Assembly: GCA_017134815.1 (NCBI GenBank)
Contig: CP071032.1
Coordinates: 2,476,001-2,540,000 of the forward strand
DNA: 64,000 nt
Direction: 5' to 3'
Origin: Lentisphaerota bacterium
GTDB taxonomy: Bacteria; Verrucomicrobiota; Lentisphaeria; Victivallales; Victivallaceae
Shown: piece by piece, positions 1-14,265 of the stretch
Position numbering within the stretch: position 1 is the first letter of the stretch
Layout of the letters: every line of letters starts with the position of its first letter
The notes under the pieces: generated by a model
What the model was told of the DNA's origin: nothing
The model's input: the letters and a program-made list of their open reading frames with translations, nothing else
Database searches by the model: none
Translations under genes and position numbers: made by a program

Positions 1-111
1 AGCTTTGAGATTATAGTATTTATGAAAAATCTTATGTTAATAGAAAATAAATAATTTTAGGAGGAGTAAAGGCTTTTTCTCGCTAGCTGCGAACGCAACA
101 ATCTAATTTAT

Positions 112-265
112 CATCGCAACATCGATGTCTGTATCACAGAAGAACGCCAGAATTTATGAGAATACAGAGAAATGGGTGTTGCGCTCGCATACTTTTGCGG
201 GCGCATTCTGTTTGTATGTATTCTCAGGTACTGGCGTACCTTCTGTGATTGCAGCGGAATGTCGC
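112..265. repeat. Long imperfect inverted repeat (about 150 nt hairpin)
   Basis: The sequence folds on itself over about 150 nt. Paired blocks from outside inwards are GCAACAT (116-122) with ATGTCGC (259-265), ATCACAGAAG (133-142) with 240-249, ACGCCAG (144-150) with 231-237, TGAGAATACA (157-166) with 217-226, and TGCGCTCGCA (180-189) with 196-205, closing on a six-base loop at 190-195. It is more GC-rich than its surroundings and appears once in the window. It may be a miniature inverted-repeat element, an attC-like recombination site or a structured RNA; the sequence alone does not decide. A 67-residue open frame across it is a by-product of the palindrome. Confidence 0.75.
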
Positions 266-352
266 CCGCTCCTTTTTATATACCGGCGGCCTAATTCTTG
301 TAATTTGTATTTCCTTTTATTGTTTTAATGATTAACAAGAAAGTGCTAAATA

Positions 353-871
353 ATGTTGAATAGGCTGCTTTTACTGAAATGTCTTTTTGTATTATTTGTA
401 ATTTCCTATGCCAATTTATCTAATGCTATTGTCTCATCAGATAATTCCAAGAGAGCTAGATTCATGAGAAATCTCGTAATGAATATTGAATATAAAACTG
501 GAACCTTACTAATTCTCGATTCCAATATTGCCGATCATATTGTTAAGGAATTTAAAGCAGACTATTCTTGGGCCAAAGAGAAGTATACTGGTAAGAAATT
601 TATGGTCAGCGGGCTTGTTCACGGTTTGAAGCCAGACCCTTATAATCAAAGAGATGTACTTTTTGAAGAGGATTATATCTGCATAAGTATCTTGATTTCA
701 TACCTAAAGAGAAAACGTTTTTATCGGCGAATTTTGTGCTATATGAAGTATGGTAAAAACTTTGAAAATAAAGTAGTTGAAGGCGTGAATATCACGTTGA
801 AAGGAAAATTGGATTATGACTGTACTGTTAATGATATCGCTTTCAGGGAGTGTGAGTTGGTTGATGAGTAG
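353..871 (+). CDS. Secreted tRNA_anti-like OB-fold protein (full-length copy)
   Basis: This is a 172-residue protein with an N-terminal signal peptide (hydrophobic residues 4-20, likely cut near SNA at 23-25). The body resembles the tRNA_anti-like OB-fold family: a strand-rich domain with YTGKKFMVSG near residues 78-87, a CYMKYGK stretch near 125, then GVNITLKGKL and a closing RECELV. Such proteins are small exported or membrane-attached proteins of unknown function. It is the only complete copy here. Its 3' end recurs as fragments near 2286, 3961, 4963, 6700, 7250, 10284 and 13634, always on the plus strand between minus-strand genes. The family call is from motif memory; the gene itself is well supported because its decayed copies keep the same frame and stop. 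Confidence 0.75.
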   Translation: MLNRLLLLKCLFVLFVISYANLSNAIVSSDNSKRARFMRNLVMNIEYKTGTLLILDSNIADHIVKEFKADYSWAKEKYTGKKFMVSGLVHGLKPDPYNQRDVLFEEDYICISILISYLKRKRFYRRILCYMKYGKNFENKVVEGVNITLKGKLDYDCTVNDIAFRECELVDE

Positions 872-934
872 TGCTGTAATACATTCCTGGAGCGAAACTC
901 TAATTGAAATCATTGAAAGACGATAAAATTTTAA

Positions 935-960
935 AGCCCGGTCAACATAAAGGCCGGGCT
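935..960. terminator. Hairpin terminator between convergent genes
   Basis: AGCCCGG (935-941) pairs perfectly with CCGGGCT (954-960). Read on the minus strand it is followed by a TTTAAAATTTT tract, so it fits best as a minus-strand terminator, although it also lies just downstream of the plus-strand OB-fold gene. A mutated copy sits in the same relative place after the OB-fold remnant at 7250-7537. Confidence 0.6.
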
Positions 961-1043
961 AACCTAAAAAGGGTCGGATGTAGTTTTTGTTAAAGCAAAT
1001 CAAAGTTTAAAACGAATCAAGCCAATATCCCTAAAAATGGTGA

Positions 1044-1130
1044 GGTAACATTAACCCAAATAGTTTGTGCTTAGATATACATAAAAATTAGAAAAAATGT
1101 TTAGCGTCCTAAAAAAGGTGAAATTTTTTA
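1044..1130. repeat. Constant intergenic module, copy 1 (degenerate)
   Basis: This stretch aligns with modules near 5018, 7649 and 11716. It begins GGTAACATTAACCC, where better copies have GTTAACGTTAACCC, continues through a TGTGCTTAGA block, and ends in a degenerate terminator (GTCCTAAAAAAGGTG). It lies downstream of the minus-strand gene ending at 1267. The rest of 872-1266 is AT-rich and contains a second partial copy of the terminator part (AAAAAGGGTCGGATG, near 968). Confidence 0.55.
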
Positions 1131-1266
1131 ATTTTTTTTAAAAAGGTATTCCATGATTTTAAGGGTAAATATAGTGATTTAATTCATGGTAATTTAAATT
1201 TCAGCTTTAAAATTTGACTAAAAGAGATAAAGTGAGCCCCAATATTCATCCCAACTCTAGGCCAAC

Positions 1267-1989
1267 TCAGTTGTTAGTTTTTTTAACTTTCTTTGTTAAT
1301 GGAAATATGTATTCGTCCTCTCTAAATTTTCCTTGTTGGTCAAATACAACAATATTTCCATTCTTTTCTATCATAAAATACTCGCTCTTAGGATTACTAA
1401 TTTTTTTATATCTAATTTTGCCGTCTTCTTTTTGGGTATTTAATTCATCAACACCATAACTTCCATCAATATAATTTGTTTGTACGTATATCTTTCCGTT
1501 AGCTGTATATATACTTATCAAGTGTTCAAAGCCTGGAGTATCATCCAACCATCTACCTATTATTAGATCATGATGTTGTTTTACAGTTGCTTTTTTTAAC
1601 TTATTTATTTTAGAAAGAGGTGAGCCAATAATGTTTAAGTCTAATCCTGCTGGTTGAAAGTAAGAATAAGCCCATACCCATTTATCTGAATTTAAATCTT
1701 TAATATAATACCAAACCCAAAGGTAAGAAAAGTGCTGTCTGTTACTTCTAAGTTGCATCGCTATTTTTTTAAGAGTTTTTTGATCAACGGGCTCAAGGAG
1801 CTCTATCCTAAGGCCACATCGACTAAAGTCGTCATCGCTGGATTCACTTATGATTTTATATCTTATATCTTTTCCTTGTGAGTCTTTTATCAGGTAAGTA
1901 CTTGACGCCAATGTAATCATTGCTGTTAAAAGAAAAGTTAAAACAAATAAAAAAGCATAAATGCTTTTAAGGTTTTTAATCTTTTTCAT
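1267..1989 (-). CDS. Secreted protein of unknown function, paralogue 1
   Basis: This 240-residue protein has a signal peptide or anchor (hydrophobic residues 9-29, ending in ITLASS). It then has a conserved half (SSDDDFSRCGLRIELLEPVD, residues about 50-69) and a WxWYYIK...WVWAYSYF segment near 92-112 that recalls small bacterial lipoprotein-like families. Function is unknown. Residues about 7-95 are nearly identical to the protein at 2818-3567, while the C-terminal half is much more divergent. Its ATG lies inside the end of a 56-codon upstream ORF (14-nt overlap), which suggests translational coupling. A consensus promoter with a palindromic operator lies at 2223-2274. Confidence 0.7.
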   Translation of the reverse strand: MKKIKNLKSIYAFLFVLTFLLTAMITLASSTYLIKDSQGKDIRYKIISESSDDDFSRCGLRIELLEPVDQKTLKKIAMQLRSNRQHFSYLWVWYYIKDLNSDKWVWAYSYFQPAGLDLNIIGSPLSKINKLKKATVKQHHDLIIGRWLDDTPGFEHLISIYTANGKIYVQTNYIDGSYGVDELNTQKEDGKIRYKKISNPKSEYFMIEKNGNIVVFDQQGKFREDEYIFPLTKKVKKTNN

Positions 1990-2146
1990 TTTCTATTTCC
2001 TTTTGTTTTTTGCTAATTCTGTCAAGGACTCTGAAGTTGTTATAATAAACTTCACTAATAGTATCATTAATTCGCGAATGAGATTCAGCTGATTTTTGAA
2101 TAATCACGCGCAAATTCTTAAGTAAATTTGTCATTTTTGTATCCAT
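1976..2146 (-). CDS. Small leader ORF (56 aa) coupled to the downstream gene
   Basis: This ORF starts MDTKMTNLLKNLRVIIQKSA and ends IENEKD, and is probably helical. It starts about 100 nt downstream of a consensus promoter and overlaps the start of the 240-residue gene by 14 nt. A second copy at 13373-13528 keeps most of the sequence but has an in-frame stop at codon 18. No family is recognised; a small regulator or antitoxin-like role is only a guess. It is too short for usual gene-calling cut-offs, but two copies with the same frame and promoter argue that it was once functional. Confidence 0.5.
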   Translation of the reverse strand: MDTKMTNLLKNLRVIIQKSAESHSRINDTISEVYYNNFRVLDRISKKQKEIENEKD

Positions 2147-2222
2147 TTTATGACTATCAATTTTTCTATTTTTTTATTTAATATATCGTTTTGTTTTTAT
2201 CCAAATAGACTAACTCCATACT

Positions 2223-2274
2223 TTTACTAAAGCACTTTAGTAAATATTATACACCCATATCATTGCTTTGTCAA
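2223..2274 (-). promoter_or_regulatory. Consensus sigma-70 promoter with palindromic operator
   Basis: On the minus strand TTGACA (2269-2274) and TATAAT (2246-2251) are exact consensus hexamers separated by 17 nt. Just downstream of the -10 lies the inverted repeat TTTACTAAAG-CA-CTTTAGTAAA (2223-2244), where a repressor would block initiation. The same promoter and operator recur at 13573-13628. Confidence 0.75.
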
Positions 2275-2285
2275 TAATACCAAAT

Positions 2286-2338
2286 AGAAACTGTATTATG
2301 ACTGTGCTTTAAATGAGTCTCTTTTAGGAAGTGTTAAG
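2286..2338 (+). pseudogene. OB-fold gene 3' remnant (copy H)
   Basis: The sequence matches the last 50 or so bases of the OB-fold gene (LDYDCTVNDIAFRECE region) with several substitutions and a lost frame. It is closest to the remnant at 13634-13704; both are preceded by the same AACACC/AATACC-AAATAGAAACTGTATT junction next to the promoter module. Confidence 0.6.
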
Positions 2339-2500
2339 CTTTGGAATACAATTAATGTACTTAACATAAGCTAAAAAGATAAATAGTTAGAAGTACATAG
2401 GACCCAATCGTAATAATAACTTTTAGTGTTAAAAAAAAACTTAGTTATAAAGTTGTACATTGTATTCCATTCAAAATAAGTATTACGATGAAGCTTAATC
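2335..2500. repeat. Nested inverted repeats, possible small mobile or structured element
   Basis: The outer arms are TTAAGCTT (about 2335) and AAGCTTAA (about 2494). The inner arm starting GGAATACAAT (about 2342), with ATGTAC two bases further on, pairs with GTACATTGTATTCC (about 2457-2470). A further pair, ATCGTAATA (about 2408) and TATTACGAT (about 2482), crosses these. The element follows an OB-fold remnant directly. It may be a MITE or a recombination site; no transposase is visible. Confidence 0.5.
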
Positions 2501-2529
2501 AGCTTAAATTATTTTCCTTTTCTCTGCTA

Positions 2530-2670
2530 TTATTTTGTTATGATTGCACTGTAACTATATTGAATTAGGCCAGATCCTAAAGACACAATAAGTGAAACAA
2601 TAGTCCAAATTAATAATTTACTTATAATAATAGTGTTTATTTTCTGCAAAAATCCAAATATTTGCTATCT
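2530..2670 (-). pseudogene. Possible 3' remnant of a membrane-protein gene
   Basis: A minus-strand frame of about 45 codons without a convincing start encodes a hydrophobic stretch (LLIWTIVSLIVSLGSGLI) ending SAIITK and stop. It could be the tail of a decayed membrane protein or chance. A 13-bp tandem duplication (ATTGCCTGACTAT twice, 2683-2708) lies just upstream. Nothing else is evident between 2501 and 2817. Confidence 0.25.
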
Positions 2671-2817
2671 CACTAAAGTTTAATTGCCTGACTATATTGC
2701 CTGACTATATTACTTAATTTACAAGTATGGTGATGATATTTATTATAAAGGTTATCAAGCGTCATATTTCCCTATTGGCTAATATCTTAATGGAGTAAAA
2801 AGAAAGCATTAGAATCA

Positions 2818-3567
2818 TTATTCAGAGTAACCTGGTCCTGGGGCACCAGTGGTTGTGCTACTTGGCCCAAGTTTCATTAACGGTAATGGTTTATCCTGTC
2901 TGAATTTATCTTTGTAACCGTATACTCCAAGGTTACCATTTTCTTCTATAATAAAATACTTAATGCTCTTTCCTTCGATGATATCATATTTTGTTTTGCC
3001 CCTATACTCTGTTTTCTTTAACTTTTCTAACTCATAGTTCCCCTCGATATAATTTATTAGAGCAAATGATCTTCCATTTTCAACATATATAGTTGTTATA
3101 GATTCCTTGCCAGGTGTGTCATCAAACCACTTACCTATTATTTGATCGTAATTTTTTTTAACAGTTGTCTTTTGTAATTTATTAATTTTAAAAAGAGGCG
3201 ATCTACTAATTTTTAATTCTAATCCATCTGGCTTAAAGTGAGAATGAGCCCATACCCATTTATCTGTATTCAAACCTTTAATATAATACCAAATCCAAAG
3301 GTAAGAAAAGTGCTGTCTGTTACTTCTAAGTTGCATCGCTATTTTTTTAAGAGTTTTTTGATCAACAGGCTCAAGTAGCTCTATCCTAAGTCCACATCGA
3401 CTAAAGTCGTCATCGCTGGATTCACTTATGATTTTATATCTTATATCTTTTCCTTGTGAGTCTTTTACCAAGTAAATACTTGACGCTAATGTAATCATTG
3501 CTGTTAAAAGAAAAGCTAAAATAAATAAAAAAGCATAAATGCTTTTTAAATTTTTAATTCTGTTCAT
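2818..3567 (-). CDS. Secreted protein of unknown function, paralogue 2
   Basis: This 249-residue protein has an N-terminal hydrophobic segment (residues 9-29) and the same first half as the gene at 1267-1989. The shared blocks are FSRCGLRIELLEPVDQKTL and LRSNRQHFSYLWIWYYIKG. The second half is divergent and ends in a low-complexity GPSSTTTGAPGPGYSE tail absent from its paralogue. The 5' halves are nearly identical at the nucleotide level, but the upstream DNA is unrelated, which indicates gene conversion or module exchange. Its start overlaps the end of a 32-codon ORF. Function is unknown, with export to the periplasm or outer surface likely. Confidence 0.7.
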   Translation of the reverse strand: MNRIKNLKSIYAFLFILAFLLTAMITLASSIYLVKDSQGKDIRYKIISESSDDDFSRCGLRIELLEPVDQKTLKKIAMQLRSNRQHFSYLWIWYYIKGLNTDKWVWAHSHFKPDGLELKISRSPLFKINKLQKTTVKKNYDQIIGKWFDDTPGKESITTIYVENGRSFALINYIEGNYELEKLKKTEYRGKTKYDIIEGKSIKYFIIEENGNLGVYGYKDKFRQDKPLPLMKLGPSSTTTGAPGPGYSE

Positions 3568-3652
3568 TTCTCATTTCCTCCTGCATTATTGCATAGCTAC
3601 TTTTAAGACGTGTTGTTAAAGTCAATATTTCGGCTGATAATTCTATCATCAT
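3554..3652 (-). CDS. Small leader ORF (32 aa) overlapping the next gene start
   Basis: The ORF reads MMIELSAEILTLTTRLKSSY and ends MRNEQN, and its last codons overlap the ATG at 3567. It contains AGGAGG (about 3577-3582), which is also the ribosome binding site of the downstream gene. It occupies the same position as the 56-codon ORF upstream of the paralogue but has a different sequence. It may be the surviving 3' end of a longer gene. Confidence is low because it is so short. Confidence 0.35.
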   Translation of the reverse strand: MMIELSAEILTLTTRLKSSYAIMQEEMRNEQN

Positions 3653-3673
3653 TCTACCAAATACAATTTAGAT

Positions 3674-3880
3674 TTATCTATTATGACATTCTGGGCAACA
3701 ATATTTACAGCCATCAACATTATCATAAAACTCTTTGGCTTTTCCAATAGCCTCATGGCAGGTTTCAAAAATGCCAATTGGTGTTCTTTCTTCGACTCCA
3801 GGAAGGAAATTACAGGAAGTTTTGTGAATTTCATGTTCTCCAGTTTCTTGTGCAATTTTATTTACAATATACACGTCCAT
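3674..3880 (-). CDS. Small Cys/His-rich protein, possible metal-binding
   Basis: The 68-residue protein has the pattern YIVNKIAQETGEHEIHKTSC, then a GIFETCHEAIGKAKEFY helix and a C-terminal DGCKYCCPECHNR. The clustered Cys and His residues (HEIH, then C..CC..CH) suggest a small zinc-binding fold. Proteins of this pattern are familiar as hypothetical proteins in accessory regions; function is unknown. A relative is encoded at 13079-13327. It has a good ribosome binding site (GAGGAGG) upstream and lies about 100 bp upstream of the secreted-protein gene in the same direction. An overlapping frame at 3649-3855 is a shadow. Confidence 0.65.
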   Translation of the reverse strand: MDVYIVNKIAQETGEHEIHKTSCNFLPGVEERTPIGIFETCHEAIGKAKEFYDNVDGCKYCCPECHNR

Positions 3881-3960
3881 AACTAGATCCTCCTCTTGCT
3901 GTTAATCATGTCCAACTATAAGTTACATATATAAGTTTGTCAACAGAATTAGCTTGTGCA

Positions 3961-4113
3961 ACGCTTTCGGCGGATTTTGTGTTATATGAAGTATGATAAA
4001 ACTTTGAACATAAAGTTGCTGAAGGTATTAATATTAGTTTGAAAGGAAAGTTGGATTTTGACTCAAGAGCAAATGATGTTGCTTTTAGGGAGTGCGAGGT
4101 GGTGAATGATTAA
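3961..4113 (+). pseudogene. OB-fold gene 3' remnant (copy B), frameshifted
   Basis: The sequence aligns with the last 150 bp of the OB-fold gene, from RILCYMKY to the stop. A one-base deletion (AAAACT where the full gene has AAAAACT) shifts the frame, and the gene's 5' two thirds are missing. The tail still reads RECEVVND and stop. It ends only 23 bp from the stop of the convergent VOC gene, without the terminator module seen elsewhere. Confidence 0.75.
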
Positions 4114-4136
4114 TGACGCAAAGTATCCTTTCTATT

Positions 4137-4487
4137 TTAATCATATTTGAACTTTTCTTCATTTTTCTTCTCCTCTTTGGTGAATTGAAGAAACTCTATA
4201 GGGGCACCATTTTCAACAATAAATGCGACTAAAAGTCCGTCAACTGGACTGTTTGGTTTTATTATTACTTCTTTACCTCTAATTGCTTCTTCAATATCTT
4301 CAACTTCAAAGGCAATATGTGAAACTTCTTTTACAATTTTTGGAAGGCGACATTTCTTGCCATATCGCATATACTGAATTCCATAAGGATTGTTATCATG
4401 TTCGGTACAGTAAATATCATAACTTTCAAGGTATATTTCACCTGTTTGGGGCTTCTTAGCAGGAATTCCAATGTGATGATATTTCAT
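4137..4487 (-). CDS. VOC (glyoxalase/dioxygenase-like) family protein
   Basis: The 116-residue protein begins MKYHHIGIPAKKP, a typical first strand of the vicinal oxygen chelate fold with a metal-ligand His. It continues with VKEVSHIAFEVEDIEEAIRG, the second-module strand with its His, and ends in a GAPIEFLQF strand that normally supplies the Glu ligand. It is a single-domain VOC protein, so it probably acts as a dimer. Substrate cannot be told. Its start overlaps the stop of an upstream frame (ATGA), now part of the debris at 4507-4765. Single VOC genes are common cargo of cassette arrays and islands. Confidence 0.75.
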   Translation of the reverse strand: MKYHHIGIPAKKPQTGEIYLESYDIYCTEHDNNPYGIQYMRYGKKCRLPKIVKEVSHIAFEVEDIEEAIRGKEVIIKPNSPVDGLLVAFIVENGAPIEFLQFTKEEKKNEEKFKYD

Positions 4488-4506
4488 TCTTTTCTAAGCC
4501 TTTCAA

Positions 4507-4765
4507 TTAGTTCCATAGTTTTTTCGCCTTCAGCAGTCTTGGCAATGCTATAATAAGCTCCCTCCTAGATAGTGTAAGCATTGCTACTCCATTTTCATCT
4601 TTCTTTACAGCTATAGTTCCTCCAGTTGTAATAATAGCAATTTTGGGTAATTTGGGATTCTTTCCCAGTAAGATTTGCTTGACATTCTTGACGACATTCC
4701 CGCCGAATGCATGAGAAAAAAAGCACAGCCAATGGCATCACAGCAGCAACAAGGCTTTTATGCAT
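4507..4765 (-). pseudogene. L-asparaginase 5' fragment (type II, secreted), frameshifted
   Basis: A good ribosome binding site (AGAGAGG) and ATG start a signal peptide, MHKSLVAAVMPLAVLFFS. A frameshift in a T-rich run then moves the reading into HAFGGNVVKNVKQ. This is followed by PKLPKIAIITTGGTIAVKKD, the N-terminal asparaginase signature with its nucleophilic Thr in TGGTIA, and then RRELIIALP. The frame ends after about 85 codons, where a full enzyme has over 300 residues, so most of the gene is missing. It would be dead as an enzyme. It sits head-on against the VOC gene start, which suggests a recombination junction. No other gene is seen in 4766-4960. Confidence 0.7.
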
Positions 4766-4962
4766 AAATTTACCTCTCTATTTATTATGGACTCCTGTAA
4801 TGAATAGATTAGACTATAACGTATATTCCTACTAAGACAAATTTTGCTTATATTATTAAAGAGAAGGAAGCAGTTAAATTTTCTAAGCATTATCATATTC
4901 CAAAGCTTTCAAATTATGAATTTCAAGTTATAAGCGCAGCTTGGTGAGATGGTTTGTTCTTC

Positions 4963-5008
4963 AGTTAATGATGTCGCTTTTGGGGAGTGTAAGTTGTTGG
5001 GGAAGTAA
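4963..5008 (+). pseudogene. OB-fold gene 3' remnant (copy C)
   Basis: Only the last 45 bp or so match (VNDVAF-ECKLLGK then TAA). The sequence upstream (4800-4960) does not match the OB-fold gene. It is followed at once by the GTTAAC module and a terminator, as in the other copies. Confidence 0.65.
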
Positions 5009-5017
5009 TGAAAAAAA

Positions 5018-5090
5018 GGTAATGTTAACTCAGTCACTTTGAGATTAGAATATCAAAAAAGGGCCGTTTGGGGTTTACGGCCCTGAAAAA
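5018..5090 (-). terminator. Constant module, copy 2, with strong minus-strand terminator
   Basis: GGTAATGTTAACTCAGTCAC starts the module. AGGGCCG (5060-5066) pairs with CGGCCCT (5078-5084), and on the minus strand the stem is followed by TTTTTTGAT, a good intrinsic terminator for the amidase gene ending at 5230. About 140 bp of AT-rich sequence without other features separates them. Confidence 0.7.
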
Positions 5091-5229
5091 AAGTTGAAAA
5101 ATTTTCATTTTTTGTGTAATGATTTTGTGATTCTAAAATATAAAAAGCCCTCAATAAAGCAGACAGTTGTCCCTCTTTATATCTTTATCAACAATTTAAT
5201 GGGTTCTTTCATTCCTCTGGATTGCTTTT

Positions 5230-6606
5230 TCATTTAATAAATGGTTTCGAAAAGTTACCGACTGCTTTTTCAATATATCTTGCAACAGCCAAAGCAATGT
5301 CTTCGCGCCAAGGTGGGGCAACTATTTGGACTCCAATAGGAAGTCCGTTCTTAGAGGTCCCTGCTCGAGTAACTACAGAAGGCCATCCTGTTAAGTTGTA
5401 AGTCACAGTATAACTAAATGTTCTTAAATCTTCCCCAGTTGTTTCTTGCTGGGGAAGTGCAGTGAAGGCGTTTACTGGACAGATTATTAGATCATAATTT
5501 TTAAGAAAAGATAACATTGTGCTACGAAACTTAGACCATTTTATCAATAATTCATCAAGCTTATTTGCATCAATGGGTTTTGCAAACTCAAGCCACGGTA
5601 TAGTATGCCCTTTGGTATTAGCCTTTTTTAGTAATCTTCTTATTAGTGCTCCACCGTCAGCGGCCCATAATTGCATTCCTAATTCATATGATTGCTCAAT
5701 TTCAGGAGGTTTTTCTTCAGTCACTATCATTTGGGATTGATCAAGTATTTTTGCCACGTTTTTAATGACTTCTGAAATGTCAGAATCGGGTGTAATAATT
5801 CCATTGTCTGTGTGAAATGCAACACGAAGTTTTTTTAAATTTATAAGGTCAGGTTTGACTAAAGGCATTGGGATTATATTAGGGTCAACCCAATCAGGGC
5901 CGCAGATAAGCGGAAGAAGTAAGTTTAGATCATCAACGCAAGTTGCTAAAGGACCAATTTGTTGAAAATGGTCCAAGAGACCGCCAAAAGGAAGAATATG
6001 CCCGGTACGCGGGACACGACCAGAAGTTGGTTTGATTGTGCTGATTCCACAGCAATGGGCTGGATACCTTAGGCTGCCTCCATAATCACTACCAATATCA
6101 AAAGGAGACCCCCCACATGCAACAATTGCTGCTCCTCCTCCGCTGCTGCCGCCAGGAGAAAGTGAGGGGTTATATGGATTGTTGGTTTGACCGTAAATTA
6201 AGTTATTTGTTTCATAAGAAAGTGTAAGCTCTGAGGTATTTGTTTTCCCCATCAGTATTGCCCCATTTGCACGAAGACGGGCAACTACTGTAGCATCTTT
6301 GGAGGGAGTAAAGTTTGCTCTTCCTTTCGTCCCTCCTGTGGAAATCATATCCTTAGTATCAAATGAATCTTTCACAGTCATTGGAATCCCATGAAGAGGA
6401 CCACTAATTTCTCCTTCTGCTAATTTCTTATCAGCATGATCTGCCTGTTCTCGAGCCTCATCAGCAGAAATATGTACTACAGCATTGAGTTTTGGATTGA
6501 CTTCCTCAATCCTATCAAGATATACATTCACTACTTCCTTTGAGGAGACTTTCTTGCTCAGAATTGCCTTACATAGTTCTGATATTGGTGCATATAAAAT
6601 ATTCAT
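5230..6606 (-). CDS. Amidase (amidase signature family, GatA-like)
   Basis: The 458-residue enzyme carries the full Ser-cisSer-Lys triad of the amidase signature family: Lys79 in GIPMTVKDSF, the cis-Ser at 154 in PGGSSGGGAAIVA, and the nucleophile Ser178 in GSDYGGSLRYPA. It hydrolyses a carboxamide bond and is cytoplasmic, with no signal peptide. The position numbers match those of GatA, but there is no gatB or gatC nearby and the ribosomal-context genes are far away. A free-standing aliphatic amide, urea-derivative or acylamide hydrolase is therefore more likely than a Glu-tRNA amidotransferase subunit. It lies in the accessory region flanked by repeat modules, consistent with horizontal acquisition. 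Confidence 0.9.
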   Translation of the reverse strand: MNILYAPISELCKAILSKKVSSKEVVNVYLDRIEEVNPKLNAVVHISADEAREQADHADKKLAEGEISGPLHGIPMTVKDSFDTKDMISTGGTKGRANFTPSKDATVVARLRANGAILMGKTNTSELTLSYETNNLIYGQTNNPYNPSLSPGGSSGGGAAIVACGGSPFDIGSDYGGSLRYPAHCCGISTIKPTSGRVPRTGHILPFGGLLDHFQQIGPLATCVDDLNLLLPLICGPDWVDPNIIPMPLVKPDLINLKKLRVAFHTDNGIITPDSDISEVIKNVAKILDQSQMIVTEEKPPEIEQSYELGMQLWAADGGALIRRLLKKANTKGHTIPWLEFAKPIDANKLDELLIKWSKFRSTMLSFLKNYDLIICPVNAFTALPQQETTGEDLRTFSYTVTYNLTGWPSVVTRAGTSKNGLPIGVQIVAPPWREDIALAVARYIEKAVGNFSKPFIK

Positions 6607-6699
6607 AACTTTTATCTTTAATTTTGAATATGTGATTAGTAAGTATTGCTTTAATAACTCAAATGCTCAATAAATTTATTCTGAAAATTTGAGAATACA

Positions 6700-6814
6700 A
6701 CCATTAGAAGAAAATGGAATGTCCAAAGGCATCAAAGTTAAATTGAGAGGGAAACTGGATTTTGACTTAAGAGATGATGATCTGGCTTTCAGTAAGTGTG
6801 AGTTAGTGGAGTAG
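6700..6814 (+). pseudogene. OB-fold paralogue 3' remnant (copy D)
   Basis: The plus-strand frame reads GIKVKLRGKLDFD, then LAFSKCELVE and stop, clearly related to the C-terminus of the OB-fold protein but more divergent than the other copies. There is no 5' part. A small hairpin (ATGTCG/CGACAT, about 6831-6856) follows the stop and may act as a terminator. Confidence 0.65.
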
Positions 6815-7171: not shown

Positions 7172-7249
7172 ATTCTCCTCCTGTTGATATCTTGTAATAG
7201 ACTATACGTTAAATAGATGATAATACCAACTACGGTATTAATAACAAAA

Positions 7250-7537: not shown

Positions 7538-7543
7538 AGAAAA

Positions 7544-7720
7544 AGCCCGGTCAATACAATGGCCGAGCTAAACAGAAAATAAGAAATGTGAATGCCGAGC
7601 TAATTTAATCAATAAACAAATTAAGTCAAGGATTCTAAATATGTGAAGGTTAACGTTAACCCAGTTACTTTAAGCTTAGAACATCAAAAAAGGGCCGATT
7701 TTGGTTAAATTCCCTAAGAA
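7544..7720. repeat. Constant intergenic module, copy 3 (hairpin plus GTTAAC block)
   Basis: A hairpin like that at 935-960 (AGCCCGGTC, 7544, with GGCCGAGCT, 7561-7569) follows the OB-fold remnant. About 80 bp later comes GTTAACGTTAAC (7649-7660), a perfect palindrome. It is followed by CCCAGTTACTTTAAGCTTAG and a weakened terminator stem (AGGG at 7691 with CCCT near 7712). It lies between the remnant and the stop of the minus-strand GrpB gene. Confidence 0.65.
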
Positions 7721-7780
7721 AGTTGAATTTTTTTATGTTGCATTAGCATTTTTAATAAAAAATAAATTTTTTTAGTTTTT

Positions 7781-8314
7781 TTAATTGTGACATTTGGTTA
7801 GTATTTCCTGAATAAAATCACTTTTGGCCTCGGTATAACTGAAAACATCATTTACAAAAACCTTGGCTAACTTTTCTTTCAAGCTCTGGTAAGCAATGGC
7901 CGAGTCTTTGTTCTTGCGTAAATAATCTCTAAAAAATAATTGTCTTTGCCAAAAAAAACTGTCTATTTTTACCATGTGCAAATGGAAATGTCTATTGGGT
8001 GAGTTGGGGCCTTTGTGTAAAAAACGACGTTTAGGAAAACTTTTTTCTAACTTGGGTACATATTCATAGCCAATAGATTCTAACGGTTTTATACAATTGT
8101 TCGATGTTAATATATCTTTTGTCCCTACCATAATATCAACAATTGGCTTGGCTGATATTTTGGGTACTGCCGTACTTCCAATGTGTTCAACAACCACATT
8201 TTTACCACCAATAACATATAAAATTTTGGCCTTTTCTTTGTCAAATATTTTGGGCCAATCATTATCATAGGTTGAAAGAATAACGTGACAGTTTAAAAAA
8301 TATTGTTCAGACAT
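7781..8314 (-). CDS. GrpB/UPF0157 family protein
   Basis: I choose the start at MSEQYFLN (8314), which has AGGA eight to twelve bases upstream, giving 178 residues. A longer frame to 8392 adds a non-conserved hydrophobic leader. The core shows the UPF0157 hallmarks: YDNDWPKIFDKEK, then VVEHIGSTAVPKISAKPIVD (a nucleotidyltransferase-like GSTAVP motif and acidic residue), and RRFLHKGPNSPNRHFHLHM. The family belongs to the nucleotidyltransferase fold and is often fused to dephospho-CoA kinase; the reaction of stand-alone members is not known. GrpB proteins are frequent in accessory gene arrays. Confidence 0.85.
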   Translation of the reverse strand: MSEQYFLNCHVILSTYDNDWPKIFDKEKAKILYVIGGKNVVVEHIGSTAVPKISAKPIVDIMVGTKDILTSNNCIKPLESIGYEYVPKLEKSFPKRRFLHKGPNSPNRHFHLHMVKIDSFFWQRQLFFRDYLRKNKDSAIAYQSLKEKLAKVFVNDVFSYTEAKSDFIQEILTKCHN

Positions 8315-8561
8315 TATGATTATCCTATTGAAAAAATACAAAATTATACTAGCTGGAAGCTGAGGAAGTGCAATACTCCTAAAATAATTCATTCCAATGT
8401 TTTAAAAGTTCCAAGGTGAATTTTTACAAAAACTATCTATGCATAGTCCATGAAAATGCCGATTCTGGTTAATAGTTCTGAAAAAAGAACAAAAACTTCT
8501 TACATTTTTTTACATTTATTTTTTTAAAGGTATAAAATATCTATTCCCGTTACAAGACCTT

Positions 8562-9212
8562 CTAAATACTCGTTATTAAATAAATATGTTCTTTTCTTAA
8601 AACTTTAATATCATTAAAATCATTTATAACTAAATCAGCTGCTTGTAGGTCGTTACATGAGTGGCTTGTTTTTAGAGCTATTGTCAAACAACCTGCTGCT
8701 TTAGCCGACGCTATGCCTGAAGGAGAATCTTCAAATGCAACACATTCATGAGCCAATAATCCTAATTTATTAACAGCTTTTAAAAAGGGTTCAGGATGTG
8801 GTTTTCCATTATTAACATCTTCTGCACAAATAGTTACGCATGGTATATTAAAACCGGCTGCACTAAGACTTGTTGAAGCAATTTTACGTGGACCACTAGT
8901 AACAATAGCCCAATCTATATCAGAAATATGCTGAACAAATCTATGTGCACCTGAAATAGATTTGGCACTTTTCATTTCATGTGCAAATTTTTGCGTCAGT
9001 TTCATTTCTTCTTTTTTGTTTTCAAAGCTTGGACATACACACCTAAGAGTTTCATTTATTTTCCTACCGTGAATATGGGGGTAGACTTCTGAAAAATTGC
9101 GATTTTTACTCTTTGACCAAACTTTCCAAACATAATTGATTATATTTGTAGTGTCAACCAAAGTCGCATCTACGTCAAAAATCATCCCTTTGCAAGTTAT
9201 TTTCTCAATCAT
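8562..9212 (-). CDS. HAD-superfamily phosphatase (beta-phosphoglucomutase-like)
   Basis: The 216-residue protein has HAD motif I in CKGMIFDVDATLVDTT (nucleophile Asp13 and Asp15, with Ala where most members have Gly). A helical cap follows, then motif II in WAIVTSG, the motif III Lys in NGKPHPEPFLKA, and motif IV in CVAFEDSPSGIASAKAAG. This pattern is typical of subfamily IA sugar-phosphate or glycerol-phosphate phosphatases such as GPP/DOG. The substrate is not predictable. A degenerate copy of the terminator module lies downstream at about 8450-8480. The next gene upstream (9299) is only 86 bp away, so the two may be co-transcribed. Confidence 0.85.
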   Translation of the reverse strand: MIEKITCKGMIFDVDATLVDTTNIINYVWKVWSKSKNRNFSEVYPHIHGRKINETLRCVCPSFENKKEEMKLTQKFAHEMKSAKSISGAHRFVQHISDIDWAIVTSGPRKIASTSLSAAGFNIPCVTICAEDVNNGKPHPEPFLKAVNKLGLLAHECVAFEDSPSGIASAKAAGCLTIALKTSHSCNDLQAADLVINDFNDIKVLRKEHIYLITSI

Positions 9213-9298
9213 GGTTACAAACCCTTAGCTTAGATAGTAGTGTTTCAGATTATCACTTTTCAAATCTTTGCTGCTTCTTTGTACATTTATATATTAGA

Positions 9299-10135
9299 CT
9301 AAATCTGAAAAGTCTTGTTCCAACCTGTATTAATGGGAAAAATATTTTTATCACTTAGAGCATTATAAAGTTTTGCAAACCCTAACATTCCAGTGCAATG
9401 TCCAAGATACAATTTACAGTCAGGGCGCTTTTTTAAAAAATCAACTGTCTGCTTTATTTCTTCATCTGAGGCATCATTGAGGTGACTGCCTCCCAAAATA
9501 TAACCTACCGGTTTAGTGGACAATGATTCAGCTGTATTTACAATTTGTGACAGTCCGCAATGTGAGCACCCAACTATAAGAAAATTGCTTTTTTCTCCTT
9601 CCATAAGTAAAGATACTTCATCAACTAAATTATCTTGAATGTAATTTTGGTCATCTTCTTTAATGAAAAAACTCCAATCAGATGGTAGAATTTCACGCCC
9701 CCCACTACTAAAAACCCTGTCTCTTCCGTCTAATAAGAAAGGTGCATCATCACACCAAATAACTCTATTATGTTTATTTGCATCTGAAATTGCCTGGAGT
9801 GAATTAGAATCAATTCCAACATATCGCAAATTCCCTCTTGCATCAGACATTTTGTACTTTAAGGCATCGCGATGTAAAACAAGATTAGCATTACTGCATT
9901 TATTTAAAGCATTACTTAGTCCGTCAGAATGGTCGTAATGCCCATGGCTAAGAATTATGTAATCGACTTCAGATAAATCAATTCCAAGCACTTCTGCATT
10001 CTTATAAAACAATGATCCTAAACCAGTATCAAAAAGAATTTTTTTATTATTCTTTTCAATTAAAACAGATAGACCTGACTCGCCATGCAGACCGTCTCTT
10101 CCAGCATTATTATCAACTAAAACTGTAACATTCAT
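9299..10135 (-). CDS. Metallo-beta-lactamase-fold hydrolase
   Basis: The 278-residue protein has the MBL metal motif LSHGHYDHSDG (His64, His66, Asp68, His69), a second-His segment in FLIVGCSHCGL, and a late His in YLGHCTG. The start KILFDTGLGSLFYKN and GCSHCGLSQIV are characteristic of the archaeal and bacterial MBL subgroup related to the methanopterin-pathway protein (RFAP synthase-like). The substrate is unknown; the subgroup is often annotated as 7,8-dihydropterin-6-methyl-4-aminobenzene-phosphate synthase by similarity, which should not be taken as function here. It is cytoplasmic and probably forms a two-gene unit with the HAD gene. Confidence 0.85.
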   Translation of the reverse strand: MNVTVLVDNNAGRDGLHGESGLSVLIEKNNKKILFDTGLGSLFYKNAEVLGIDLSEVDYIILSHGHYDHSDGLSNALNKCSNANLVLHRDALKYKMSDARGNLRYVGIDSNSLQAISDANKHNRVIWCDDAPFLLDGRDRVFSSGGREILPSDWSFFIKEDDQNYIQDNLVDEVSLLMEGEKSNFLIVGCSHCGLSQIVNTAESLSTKPVGYILGGSHLNDASDEEIKQTVDFLKKRPDCKLYLGHCTGMLGFAKLYNALSDKNIFPINTGWNKTFQI

Positions 10136-10283
10136 GATTTAGACCTTGGTGTTAATCATACAAACTTTTGGAAAAATTATCATATAGCAAACCACGAACA
10201 ATTTCAATCAAACAAAGTTTTTAAATTTTGGAAATTTATTACTAATTATAGACTAAGTGAAGAAGTTTTTTGGGGAACTAAAC

Positions 10284-10333
10284 TCTAAAGTTAATGATGT
10301 CGCTTTTAGGGAGTGCGAGTTGGTAGATTAATA
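10284..10333 (+). pseudogene. OB-fold gene 3' remnant (copy F)
   Basis: The last 50 bp or so (VNDVAFRECELVD then TAA) match the full gene almost perfectly. The preceding 100 bp (10160-10280) does not match and holds no gene. Confidence 0.65.
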
Positions 10334-10395
10334 AAACAAATATCTTTGGGCAGGAGGATTAGTCTATGTCATGGGGCAGCGATAAGGTAAAAGTC

Positions 10396-10419
10396 CCGGC
10401 TAGCTTGATGGCTAGCCGG
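10396..10419 (-). terminator. Strong hairpin terminator
   Basis: CCGGCTAGC (10396-10404) and GCTAGCCGG (10411-10419) form a perfect 9-bp stem with a six-base loop. On the minus strand it is followed by GACTTTTAC. It lies just downstream of the minus-strand gene ending at 10442 and beside OB-fold remnant F. Confidence 0.7.
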
Positions 10420-10441
10420 ATCCAAAAGAAAAAATACAAAT

Positions 10442-11149
10442 TTATGGATTTATCGATTGAAGGTTAGAATCTGACTGGATTGTGTGTCCGTTAGTCATAT
10501 TTGGAACAATTGGTTTGTGGGGTTTAGGAAGGTACACGTATTCAAGAGCTAAAAATGTCATAAGATGTGCAACGAAAGAATTATTAAAGTGACCTTGAGC
10601 ATCAATAGTGAGACTGGTAATTGAAAGTTGTTTATCGGCTGGAAAGCTTTTAAAGGCATTCATAAAGGCATCCACAAAAGCATGTTCATAATTATCTGAA
10701 GGGTCAAAACCGTTGTAAGGCTTTGATATTAAAATTCCACAAATTATACTATTGGGATTCGCATTTCTAATATCGCTGATCATTTTTATGTAATAAGCTT
10801 GAGTTTTTTGGAAATAATTTGGATCATAATTTTGACCTTGAACATCATATTTATCAAAATCGGTAGGGTCTAATTTCGCAAAGATAACAATAACATCTGC
10901 ATTGGTAGTTAAAATGTAGCTGTTTGCTTTTTGATATTTATAAAGAGAAAAAGTGTATTTGATGTTTGTAAGAAACTGACCATCTTTGAGATAAACTTTT
11001 GTGTTATTTTTAAGGGTACTTTTTAAATCGTTTCCCATTCCAAAATCATAGCAAACATAATTTAGATCTCTATATAAACCTCCTGAAAATGCATTAAATG
11101 ATATAAAAAAAGAGGTGATTGCGAATAAAAAAATTATCGTCTTTTTCAT
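10442..11149 (-). CDS. Secreted protein of unknown function, possibly SGNH-hydrolase-like
   Basis: The 235-residue product has a clear signal peptide (MKKTIIFLFAITSFFISFNAFSG, cut near residue 22). A DVIVIFAKLDPTDFDKYD segment sits where SGNH hydrolases have the block around GxND, and LTIDAQGHFNNSFVAHLMTF resembles the final DxxH block. However, the canonical GDS Ser is not obvious, so the assignment is weak. The protein ends in a Pro/Asn/Ser-rich tail (PKPHKPIVPNMTNGHTIQSD). It is transcribed alone and followed by a strong terminator. Confidence 0.5.
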   Translation of the reverse strand: MKKTIIFLFAITSFFISFNAFSGGLYRDLNYVCYDFGMGNDLKSTLKNNTKVYLKDGQFLTNIKYTFSLYKYQKANSYILTTNADVIVIFAKLDPTDFDKYDVQGQNYDPNYFQKTQAYYIKMISDIRNANPNSIICGILISKPYNGFDPSDNYEHAFVDAFMNAFKSFPADKQLSITSLTIDAQGHFNNSFVAHLMTFLALEYVYLPKPHKPIVPNMTNGHTIQSDSNLQSINP

Positions 11150-11242
11150 TGGAATTCCTTAATTGTTTTTGCTCTTAAGTTTTTTGTTTATAATTTTATA
11201 AACCAGAATAAATTTCGGTTGTGATTAAATTAAAATTAGATA

Positions 11243-11299
11243 TCTAGCTGTACATTGGCTTGCCTGTTTCCTGGGTTCAGGCATTAATGTACAGTTAGA
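11243..11299. repeat. 57-bp inverted repeat with attC-like end boxes
   Basis: TCTAGCTGTACATT (11243-11256) pairs with AATGTACAGTTAGA (11286-11299) through one G-T wobble, and GCCTG (11262) pairs with CAGGC (11278). The right end reads GTTAGAC, matching the integron R' box consensus GTTRRRY; the left end ATCTAGC differs from RYYYAAC by one base. Unlike true attC sites, there is no unpaired central spacer. It could equally be an operator or a structured leader of the gene starting at 11149. Confidence 0.5.
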
Positions 11300-11376
11300 C
11301 CTGCTATGAATTATAGGGATATAGACGTGATCATCACAGGAAATGTTTCTTGTGTTTGTAAGAGTTTTTGTATGAA

Positions 11377-11421
11377 GTTGTTAGGCAGTTCTAAGTAAGG
11401 ACTTAGTATTAGTCTAACAAC
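11377..11421. repeat. 45-bp inverted repeat with GTTAGGC and GTCTAAC boxes
   Basis: GTTGTTAG (11377-11384) pairs with CTAACAAC (11414-11421), and CTAAGT (11391-11396) pairs with ACTTAG (11401-11406) around an AAGG loop. The boxes GTTAGGC and GTCTAAC are inside the stem, in the opposite order to an attC. A further TCGATT-A-AATCGA palindrome follows at about 11427. The remainder of 11150-11715 is AT-rich and shows no gene. Confidence 0.5.
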
Positions 11422-11715
11422 AGTGATCGATTAAATCGAGATAACAGCTGGTAAGTAATTTTTATAAAGCTATGATTACAACCCCCTGAGAATACTTTAA
11501 AAATTATTAGGTATTGGAAACTACAAAACCTTAAACAACTATAATGCATTAGTATCTTAAATGCGTTTCTTTTTGCTTTAGAATATTTTCAGTGAGCTAT
11601 AAAATTTAAGAAATTGATAATATTTGGTGATTGAAAATATTATTAAATACTGAATGGATAGTAAGAAAATAATTTTATTCTATATCATTAAATCAATAAA
11701 TCAATAAATTACTAG

Positions 11716-11790
11716 GTTAACGTTAACCCAGTGACTTTTAGCTTAGAACATTAAAAAAGGGCCGATTGGGGTTAACGGCCCTAAAAAAAT
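11716..11790 (-). terminator. Constant module, copy 4, with intact minus-strand terminator
   Basis: GTTAACGTTAAC (11716-11727) leads through CCCAGTGACTTTTAGCTTAG to a stem, AGGGCCG (11758-11764) with CGGCCCT (11776-11782). On the minus strand the stem is followed by TTTTTTAATG. It is the best-preserved copy of the module and terminates the substrate-binding-protein gene at 11829. Confidence 0.75.
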
Positions 11791-11828
11791 AGAAAAAAGT
11801 TTTAACTTTGTGTAAGCTCTATCATGAG

Positions 11829-12803
11829 CTAATTATAACTAACTGCACATAGGCTAATTTGGTCTTTTACAAAGTTTTTAAAAGCTATTTCAATACCAGC
11901 ACCTTTTGAAAGGATATTTACTTTTCTAGGGATAAGTTTTTGTTGATACAAGAAGTCGATATCTTTTCTTAAACTTTTAATGTCATCTCTGTTTAAGGTA
12001 TTTATAAATTTGGTGTTGTTGTACAACCACTCAGCGTCTTTGTAGGAAATCCCAAGGTCTTTAGCAGCTATCTCTAAGGCTTCACGTTTATGATTTTTGA
12101 TAAATTCCATCGCCTCATCTTGGACTTTAATATATCTTTTAATCCAATCAGGGTGTTTTTTCGCAAAGGATTCATTAACCGCAACAACTAGCTTTGTTCG
12201 CATTAGCCCTTTGGCTGTTGTCAAGATTCTTGCCCCTCTTTTTTTAGCGTTTACCACTTCAGTCGCGGCCAATATCCCAACATCTACCTTGCCAGCAAGC
12301 ATAGCTTTATATGTTTCTGCATTCGACATCGGGATATAATTGACGTCTTTTATTGTCATATTATTTTTTGCTAATGCCAGAAGTAGTAATTGGTGCGAGT
12401 TGTGCTTGCTAACGCAGGCAATAGTTTTGCCTTTTAAATCTTTGACTGACTTAATATTTGGATTAGTGGTCATCAAAGCCAAGGTATCGGTAGAGTTACA
12501 AACTGCTCTAATAATATTTAGCTTTATATTTTGGCCTGCCGCTACAATTATGCTGGTAGTATTAAGACTTCCGCATATATCAACTTTGCCTGTTGCTGCT
12601 GCCTTGACTTGTTTTACACCATTGGTGATATCGTGAAATTTTATTTTTATCCCATCTTTCGCAAATTCTTTTTCCAGTAAGCCTTTATGTTTCATGACTA
12701 CCAATTGCAGATTAAACGGGCAGTTTGGGTAAGTTACATTGATTTCTTTGCCTAAAAGGTTCAAAGCTGCGAATAAAGACAGGATACAAAATAAAACTCT
12801 CAT
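11829..12803 (-). CDS. ABC transporter substrate-binding protein (NMT1/SsuA-like)
   Basis: The 324-residue protein has a signal peptide (MRVLFCILSLFAALNLLGKE). It then shows a periplasmic-binding-protein layout typical of the nitrate/sulfonate/taurine and NMT1/THI5-like families: INVTYPNCPFNLQLVVMKHK, GVKQVKAAATGKVDICGSLN, SVKDLKGKTIACVSKHNSHQ and MLAGKVDVGILAATEV. It would bind a small organic or sulfonated solute in the periplasm for an ABC importer. No permease or ATPase gene is adjacent, so it is an orphan in this array and must work with a transporter elsewhere or be non-functional cargo. A good terminator follows. Confidence 0.8.
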   Translation of the reverse strand: MRVLFCILSLFAALNLLGKEINVTYPNCPFNLQLVVMKHKGLLEKEFAKDGIKIKFHDITNGVKQVKAAATGKVDICGSLNTTSIIVAAGQNIKLNIIRAVCNSTDTLALMTTNPNIKSVKDLKGKTIACVSKHNSHQLLLLALAKNNMTIKDVNYIPMSNAETYKAMLAGKVDVGILAATEVVNAKKRGARILTTAKGLMRTKLVVAVNESFAKKHPDWIKRYIKVQDEAMEFIKNHKREALEIAAKDLGISYKDAEWLYNNTKFINTLNRDDIKSLRKDIDFLYQQKLIPRKVNILSKGAGIEIAFKNFVKDQISLCAVSYN

Positions 12804-12944
12804 GTAAACACTTTATTCTAAAAAAGTTTCCTCTAAAAACGACTGATTATTATAAGCCTAAATAATGAATTTTCAATTATGAGAAAGAACATATTTATGA
12901 TTTTAAAGAGCAAAAGTGGTTTAGTAAGAGGACGTTCAAGGGAA

Positions 12945-13000
12945 ACGTGGGGAAAAAGGTTAGTGCCCTGAAAAAGGTGAGTTTTTTTCATGCATTTTAG
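12945..13000. repeat. Degenerate constant module downstream of the Cys/His gene
   Basis: GTGGGGAAAAAGGTTAGTGCCCTGAAAAAGG resembles the terminator part of the other modules in a decayed form, at the equivalent place downstream of the minus-strand gene ending at 13079. Nothing else is seen in 12804-13078; a 69-codon minus frame there runs through the repeat and is not believed. Confidence 0.35.
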
Positions 13001-13078
13001 GCATGTTACTATTAGATTAAATAAAGATAAAAATACTCTCAATGCGGCATAGCCAGGTTGATGTGCAATATTTTATTA

Positions 13079-13327
13079 CTATCTATATGAGATTTCTTCT
13101 CTATTAGATACAAGGAATATATTATGGCTGTTGTACTCTCTGCAACAACAAACGCCTAAATCAACTTTGACATAATAGTCTTTTGATTGTTCAAGAGCTT
13201 GTGCTGAATTATTGAAGTATCCAAGGAATATCCTATCCTTTCTCTTTTCAAGAAATAAACAGCCTGCTCTGTGAACTTTATGCATACCATGTCGATCAGA
13301 CTCAACATTGACGTAATATTTTTCCAT
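13079..13327 (-). CDS. Small Cys/His protein related to the 3674 gene
   Basis: The 82-residue protein begins YYVNVESDRHGMHKVHRAGC and continues LGYFNNSAQALEQSKDYYVK, then VDLGVCCCREYNSHN, aligning along its length with the 68-residue protein at 3674-3880. The C-terminal Cys cluster is altered (CCC instead of CxxCCxxCH), and the protein runs on about 15 residues further. The gene sits behind a promoter and leader module that elsewhere drives an unrelated gene: the DNA just upstream still contains the first codons of that other gene (MKKIKSLK, start at 13376). It therefore looks like a fusion of a promoter cassette to new cargo. Function is unknown. Confidence 0.6.
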   Translation of the reverse strand: MEKYYVNVESDRHGMHKVHRAGCLFLEKRKDRIFLGYFNNSAQALEQSKDYYVKVDLGVCCCREYNSHNIFLVSNREEISYR

Positions 13328-13372
13328 GATAAAACCCTCTACTATGAATCATTTTAAGGCTTTTAATCTTTT

Positions 13373-13528
13373 TCATTTCTTATTTTCTTTTTCTCTCATT
13401 CTGTCAAGGACTCTGAAGTTGTTATAATAAACTTCACTAATAGTATCATTAATTCGCGAATGCGATTCCGCAGCTTATTGAATAATCAAGCGCAAGTTAT
13501 TAAGTAAATTTGTTATTTTTGTATCCAT
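13373..13528 (-). pseudogene. Broken second copy of the 56-aa leader ORF
   Basis: The sequence is about nine tenths identical to the leader ORF at 1976-2146 but has TAA at codon 18 (IIQ then stop) and small indels near its end. It is followed by the first eight codons of the secreted-protein paralogue (MKKIKSLK) before similarity stops abruptly, close to the start of the Cys/His gene. Confidence 0.65.
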
Positions 13529-13572
13529 TTTACAATTACCAATTTTTCTACTTATTTTAGCCAGACACTACT

Positions 13573-13628
13573 AATACTTACTAAAGTGCTTTAGTAAGTA
13601 TTATACACCTAAACCATTGCTTTGTCAA
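13573..13628 (-). promoter_or_regulatory. Consensus sigma-70 promoter with 30-bp palindromic operator
   Basis: On the minus strand TTGACA (13623-13628), a 17-nt spacer and TATAAT (13600-13605) are all exact consensus. The operator is AATACTTACTAAAG (13573-13586) and its exact complement at 13589-13602 around a 2-nt centre, overlapping the -10. It is the longer version of the operator at 2223-2244. It should drive the Cys/His gene at 13327. Confidence 0.75.
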
Positions 13629-13633
13629 TAACA

Positions 13634-13704
13634 CCAAATAGAAACTGTATTTTGACTGCACTGTTAATGATGTCGCTTTTAGGGAGTGCGAGGTGGGGGA
13701 GTAA
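13634..13704 (+). pseudogene. OB-fold gene 3' remnant (copy G)
   Basis: The tail (FDCTVNDVAFRECEVGE then TAA) is preserved in frame. It is fused directly to the -35 side of the promoter module, with the same junction as copy H at 2286. Confidence 0.7.
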
Positions 13705-13821
13705 TGACATCAAAATGGAATTGCCTAATAATTAACTTATCTAGAGTTATGAGAAGGCCAATGCTTATGAGTTTTTAATAAAACAATACCCCCAAAACAA
13801 ATTGAATTAATGAAGGTAACA

Positions 13822-13945
13822 TTAAAAAGGGCAGAGTTTATTAACCTTGTTTCTTCCAGCATATACATTAGCTTCGATACTTAAAATCTGTTTAAAATCT
13901 TTTCCAGTGAATTGTTCTTTGAAGAATAAATGGTTATTGATTCAA
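13822..13945 (-). pseudogene. Unrecognised minus-strand gene remnant
   Basis: A frame of about 40 codons without a start reads FFKEQFTGKDFKQILSIEAN, then VYAGRNKVNKLCPF and stop. It has a coding-like composition but no recognised family. It ends in a degenerate copy of the repeat module (GGTAACATTAAAAAGGGCAG, 13815). The rest of 13705-14060 shows no gene. Confidence 0.25.
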
Positions 13946-14062
13946 CTCATGGGAAAATGACTATCACTAAAAAAAGAGTTGAGTATGATCGAAAGTGAAC
14001 ATCGCAGATTTTTAAATGTCTAAATTTAAAGAATGTTTCCTCTCTCTCCTCCTTTTGCTGAG

Positions 14063-14097
14063 GCCTTCCGATTACCCAATCGGAGGGCTTTACTTTT
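14063..14097 (+). terminator. Strong intrinsic terminator at the accessory-region boundary
   Basis: GCCTTCCGATT (14063-14073) pairs with AATCGGAGGGC (14078-14088) around ACCC, followed by TTTACTTTTT. No plus-strand gene is evident immediately upstream, so the gene it once served may have been removed or replaced. Confidence 0.7.
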
Positions 14098-14192
14098 TAA
14101 TAGGAACTTCAGACAATGTCAGATGGTAGCAGTTGGGAGCGCTACGTGATAGGGCATATGTAGGTTTTGATTTTTTATTTGGAGAAAAAACG

Positions 14193-14249
14193 ATGAGAGG
14201 TTTTGTGTCTAAGTTATTTGTTTGTATAAGGATGAGATGGGGTATTTAG
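14193..14249 (+). pseudogene. 18-codon start fragment with good ribosome binding site
   Basis: GGAG at 14180-14183 precedes ATG at 14193, and the frame MRGFVSKLFVCIRMRWGI then stops. It resembles the beginning of a signal peptide. It may be the orphaned 5' end of the truncated gene that is open from 14266, separated from it by a deletion. Confidence 0.35.
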
Positions 14250-14265
14250 AAATATTTAAACCTGA

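Follow-up and report, generated by a model that had tools for sequence, protein, structure and literature searches.

The DNA analyzed here, referred to as the window, is a stretch of 64,000 nucleotides from a Lentisphaerota bacterium (GCA_017134815.1, contig CP071032.1, positions 2,476,001 to 2,540,000). Its first 14 kb contain an array of variable genes separated by constant DNA (Table 1). The constant DNA is of two kinds: 3' ends of a gene for an OB-fold protein (OB tails), and a short module containing GTTAAC. Their recurrence had been noticed in the original prediction, and seven OB tails, four module copies and decayed traces are indeed present in the window. The variable genes (the cargo) and the constant DNA form units, as was also proposed, and such units are common to several loci of the genome. 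The VOC, amidase, GrpB, HAD and metallo-beta-lactamase (MBL) cargo was checked against Pfam, and the small Cys/His proteins against PHROG families. The earlier assignments of GrpB, HAD and MBL are supported by Pfam matches, while that of VOC is not. Both small Cys/His proteins match phrog_4298, a family of phage proteins whose function is unknown.

Table 1. Features at the beginning of the window (positions in the window).
Feature	Position	Strand	Remarks
Element F, right part	1-14282	+	integrase, repressor/early-gene remnants, cos-like site, att arms, 11-bp repeats
Promoter-like sequence directly upstream of leader RNA	-10 near 12-18	+	conserved upstream alignment
Leader RNA of the OB gene, ~216 nt here	82-297	+	covariation; ends in attenuator-like terminator strand
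Intact OB-fold gene, 172 amino acids	353-871	+	signal-peptide-like N-terminus; Pfam tRNA_anti-like (PF12869)
Decayed module copy	1046-1123	-	60%
Cargo gene, family F13, 240 amino acids	1267-1989	-	no Pfam match
Decayed OB 3' fragment	2288-2334	+	
Cargo gene	2818-3567	-	paralogue of 1267-1989
Small Cys/His protein	3674-3880	-	phrog_4298, E 7.4e-24
OB 3' fragment	3967-4112	+	junction with next cargo gene recurs in element C
Cargo gene, originally called VOC-like	4137-4487	-	no Pfam match
OB 3' fragment	4964-5007	+	
Module copy	5020-5091	-	
Amidase (cargo)	5230-6606	-	PF01425, E 2.3e-106
OB 3' fragment	6726-6816	+	
OB 3' half	7263-7523	+	longest fragment of the array
Module copy	7647-7727	-	second terminator on OB side, common to elements B and H
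GrpB family (cargo)	7781-8392	-	PF04229
Decayed module trace	8453-8495		72% over 43 nt
HAD hydrolase (cargo)	8562-9212	-	PF13419
Metallo-beta-lactamase fold (cargo)	9299-10135	-	PF00753
OB 3' fragment	10282-10333	+	junction with next cargo gene recurs in element C
Cargo gene, family F11	10442-11149	-	
Unit: module (11700-11800) and NMT1-type solute-binding gene (11829-12803)	11687-12880	-	Pfam NMT1
Decayed module trace	12953-12999		
Small Cys/His protein	13079-13327	-	phrog_4298, E 8.3e-12
OB 3' fragment	13642-13696	+	
Decayed module trace	13818-13831		only 14 nt, possibly chance
Right attachment arm of element F	13982-14176	+	core ATAGGGCATATGTAGG at 14149-14164
Flanking direct repeat CTGCTGGCACA, right copy	14272-14282	+	left copy at genome 2456084

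The array belongs to a degenerate P2-like, contractile-tailed prophage, here called element F, of which it forms the right part. This prophage is one of at least seven related phage-derived elements (A-F and H) in the same Lentisphaeria genome. Element F spans 34.2 kb from repeat to repeat (genome 2,456,084-2,490,282), and its left end lies 20 kb outside the window. The interval described originally starts around the middle of F and stops almost exactly at its right end. No integrase had been seen, and this holds for the window alone. A search for a tyrosine recombinase to the left of it had been suggested, and an open tyrosine integrase gene of phage type (genome 2456230-2457534; phrog_1, E 8.5e-58) is found there, 20 kb away. 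Thus F has a phage integrase, matching attachment (att) arms and flanking direct repeats. Its right arm is 83% identical to the right arm of H over 197 nt (E 1.3e-50). When the proteins of H were used as queries, no head, tail or packaging gene was found in F, except a cohesive-end (cos)-like site (genome 2471952-2472151) and a small-terminase fragment; F is therefore regarded as a degenerate derivative. The same search detected only remnants of the repressor and early genes. The 18 kb between the cos-like site and the right attachment site (attR) are cargo in F, where H has its late operon, and apart from the small-terminase-like fragment no recognizable phage gene is seen in this part. The cargo genes of F are mostly antiparallel to the phage genes.

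Element H is a complete contractile-tailed prophage of 36.8 kb at 2,768.7-2,805.5 kb. It encodes an integrase, a repressor-like protein, an anti-repressor, an exonuclease, a terminase, a portal protein, a major head protein, a sheath protein, a tape measure protein, baseplate proteins and a tail fibre, so head, tail and packaging genes are all present. Between its tail genes, at 2,780,469-2,781,818, there are three accessory genes on the opposite strand, which by eye resemble small heat-shock proteins. Searches with H proteins reveal remnants in the other clusters, including the integrase and early-gene remnants of F. The clusters hold a terminase large subunit (GpA family), head-associated and head-tail joining proteins, and a phage integrase. 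Counterparts of the att arms of H bound A-F. Elements B (754-791k), C (1,379-1,413k, reversed), D (1,419-1,451k) and F (2,456-2,490k) are less decayed than A and E. Just outside the arms, locus-specific direct repeats are seen for H (12 bp), B (20 bp), C (12 bp), D (12 bp), E (11 bp) and F (11 bp). By our own estimate, the chance of an 11-mer shared by two 160-nt stretches is ~0.006. An extra right-end att arm is present inside D (genome 1,425,366-1,425,541), beside an OB tail, and is a sign of nested or recombined elements.

A repeat region of GGGGTACAAA motifs with a GC-rich palindrome directly precedes the terminase genes in H. The genome has about a dozen such sites, two of them in each of B, C and D. 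The repeat was considered as a transposon end; this was dropped because of its position directly upstream of the terminase genes of H. From this position and the repeats, the region could be considered as cos-like.

In the original prediction, a module confined to the array as an old tandem duplication was named as an outcome that would speak against cassettes. Instead, the genome-wide search returned 18 matches (best 2.6e-47, several below 1e-20), which are neither chance nor local. Their clusters are at about 662-672k, 766-779k, 1,385-1,436k, 2,461-2,489k, 2,796k and 2,888k of the 3.2-Mb single-contig genome. On the cargo strand, the aligned modules consist of a terminator (GGGCCGTTAACC..CCGGCCCTTTTTT), followed by ~35 conserved nucleotides up to GGGTTAACGTTAACC. 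In H, the early operon and an NMT1 cargo gene converge, and the space between their ends is taken up by the module. It thus reads as a terminator region that separates the early operon of the phage from a cargo gene convergent with it. The order F6-module-NMT1 recurs in the genus mate. The constant DNA was said to lie 3' of the cargo, and 12 of 19 module copies have a cargo 3' end on the expected side no more than 1.5 kb away.

Six copies of the OB gene are intact, one each in B, D, E and F and two in C; besides these, the genome has about 10 decayed 3' fragments of it. The tails are 5'-truncated copies of this accessory gene, which when intact has its own promoter-like region and leader RNA. 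In the window, the tails start at OB nucleotides 245, 372, 428, 454, 454, 467 and 475. Their left edges are therefore not one recombination site. Both the OB gene and NMT1 are under purifying selection, with median ratios of nonsynonymous to synonymous substitution rates (dN/dS) of 0.20 and 0.16 across copies, and they might benefit the host or the phage. No OB relatives were found in the GTDB genome set, which may leave out the genome itself and others nearly identical to it. OB tails of the genus mate are close to a related integrase and tail genes, or else to a cos-like site. The genus mate has about a dozen matches to the integrase family, mostly at contig ends (e.g., C412, C138, C169 and C18); the query was a hand-joined mix of two integrases, which is good for finding relatives and not for exact identities. 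These contigs stop ~1-6 kb from the integrase, and whole elements are not readable in them. The expansion of the element family thus seems no smaller in the genus mate.

Each of the six intact OB genes is preceded by a structured RNA of ~220 nt. In an alignment of 38 sequences, 53 of 59 pairs change on both sides and the covariation score is 0.49, against 0.18 for shuffled and at most 0.09 for slid alignments; because the alignment was fitted to the model, and two self-hits on the reverse strand are part of it, these counts lean towards structure. A count independent of the alignment gives 65 of 74 distinct sequences with at least six of seven outer-stem bases paired, against a mean of 16 with swapped partners, and about five of the 74 are chance pattern matches. 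A helix can form between the 3' strand of the apical stem and the terminator strand (for instance GGGGTACGTC with TTTTTTT after it); its mean length is 9.7 bp, compared with 7.4 bp for swapped and 6.3 bp for shuffled sequences. Such pairing suggests attenuation of transcription. According to the model, 48 of 137 genomes of the order have the RNA, upstream of various genes, among which those for zinc-ribbon proteins are the commonest. A known RNA family was rejected, since Rfam gives no match above the gathering score at the leader and its best candidates below the threshold are implausible. The leader is a candidate for a new family of regulatory RNAs that extends across Lentisphaeria. Pattern matches that look real also occur, rarely, in records titled Planctomycetota, Verrucomicrobia and Bacteroidales. 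Six pattern matches in IMG/VR all lack a downstream terminator and were judged to be chance.

Base-by-base comparison of selected stretches of the genome shows that units and junctions are mosaic among the elements. The unit at window 11687-12880 is 92% identical to H over 1,201 bp (genome 2795882-2794682). The junction at the tail 3967-4112 is 86% identical over 217 bp to C (genome 1382193-1382408), and the junction at the tail 10282-10333 is 89% identical over 232 bp to another site of C (genome 1400693-1400918). The RNA-OB segment of F is closest to that of D (88%). A and D have in common a 1,452-bp unit (97.7% identity) whose neighbours differ on both sides. Such a mosaic is the expected outcome of homologous recombination between co-resident prophages, from which we infer that the units were exchanged in this way.

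Most probably, the array represents the region of accessory genes ("morons") in the degenerate prophage F, and its constant DNA consists of segments resident in this phage family. These are the terminator module of the early operon and the RNA-led OB gene. Ordinary homologous recombination at the common segments, accompanied by deletions, has probably carried the units from one co-resident element to another, and no dedicated cassette recombinase would be needed. A different cassette-forming process had been offered in the original prediction; it is not supported. The constant parts are residents of the prophage family, and the array ends at the right att site of the prophage. Several observations do not sit easily with the moron-region explanation. 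The OB gene is absent from H, and the amidase, GrpB, HAD and MBL cargo has no copy in the other cluster stretches examined. The borders of the units are only partly at common segments, as the left ends of the OB tails vary. The exchange of units is read from a mosaic within one genome and not from close strains. The small-terminase-like gene has no profile match, so the designation of "cos" relies on position and repeats.

An integron or integron-like array would require unrecognized attC sites and an integrase elsewhere. The variable genes, the constant DNA 3' of many of them, and the units common to several loci agree with it. As in integron cassette arrays, the genes are unrelated and mostly codirectional, with repeated DNA adjoining. 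However, a search of the genome with TIGR02249 for an integron integrase gave nothing above the cut-off, only XerC/D-like matches. Two genes below the threshold lie far from the array, and similar sub-threshold matches are obtained in 14 of 14 control genomes. Judged by eye, the aligned modules conserve no attC pair RYYYAAC...GTTRRRY; their common sequence is GTTAACGTTAAC. Unlike the repeats of integron arrays, those of F are phage-family terminators and gene remnants: the module is accounted for by a terminator region of the phage, and the borders of the OB tails vary. The hairpin upstream of the OB gene was also considered as an attC site, and this is ruled out by its covariation, its U-tract and the many different genes downstream of it in other genomes. 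An integron is thus extremely improbable. An old local tandem duplication without any mobile element is very unlikely as well. Paralogous neighbours do occur, for example the genes at window 1267-1989 and 2818-3567 and tandem NMT1 genes. Against this, the repeats are dispersed over seven elements with the same att arms, one unit is in a complete phage, and the genome-wide distribution contradicts a local origin.

A further question is whether the defective elements are live satellites of helper length, excised by their own integrase, packaged at the cos-like site by H or a relative, and carrying cargo in place of virion genes. The elements with an open integrase have similar lengths from repeat to repeat, with 36.8 kb (H), 36.8 kb (B), 34.3 kb (C), 32.9 kb (D) and 34.2 kb (F), while those with a broken or missing integrase are 16 kb (E) and about 22 kb (A). 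The best cos-like copies of C, D, E and F are 89-94% identical to that of H, above the values for the integrase and the att arms. The lengths and the cos-like identity both agree with helper packaging. The purifying selection on OB and NMT1 is also compatible with live elements. On the other hand, the comparison is of five lengths only, F retains only remnants of the repressor and early genes, most of which are missing from C, and B, C and D hold two cos-like copies each. Recent recombination with H would also keep the cos-like sites alike. Live satellites are therefore rather unlikely. It can be speculated, with less confidence still, that the cargo elements are full-length satellites caught forming, relatives of H in which most or all virion genes have been traded for shuffled cargo, with the integrase, att arms, cos and a near-constant genome length kept, and that this cargo would move from cell to cell in H particles. 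If the near-constant length reflects packaging, the elements would be intermediates from prophage to satellite; such an origin has been proposed, although it is difficult to observe.

Among known systems, P2-like phages carry variable cargo next to cos, in a hotspot that averages ~3 kb in an otherwise complete phage (PMC9122126). Likewise, the cargo of H, two NMT1 genes and an HsdR-N protein, is between the early operon and the cos-like site, and defence-type genes are among the cargo of the family. In contrast to the P2/P4 hotspots, ~18 kb of cargo replaces the late genes in F, units recur across the elements of one genome, and much of the cargo is secreted-protein-like and of unknown function. 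Pools of defective prophages have been discussed as possible satellite precursors (PMC11389934). Here too there are several related elements, one of which is complete while the others lack virion genes and keep the integrase; cargo arrays and the near-constant length distinguish the present elements from those pools. Phage-inducible chromosomal islands (PICIs) are typically ~15 kb and their att sites are never occupied by prophages (PMC6092414). Element F resembles them in its integrase, att sites, cos-like site and accessory genes, and it joins an integrase to the absence of virion genes as expected of a satellite. It differs from PICIs in size (34.2 kb, with 33-37 kb for the elements here) and in sharing its integrase and att arms with the complete phage H. 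As the accessory region of a degenerate prophage, the array gives an integron-like arrangement a known vehicle. It illustrates how far cargo can take over a prophage, with ~18 kb in place of late genes, and how related cargo recurs in several elements of one genome.

Genes of defence type are present in two of the elements. Left of the window, F contains genes for a DndC-like protein and a KAP NTPase (PDC-S20), at genome 2,470,174-2,471,205 and 2,468,526-2,469,767. Element E contains an AbiEii/AbiEi pair (genome 2,335,697-2,337,305) and a dGTPase.

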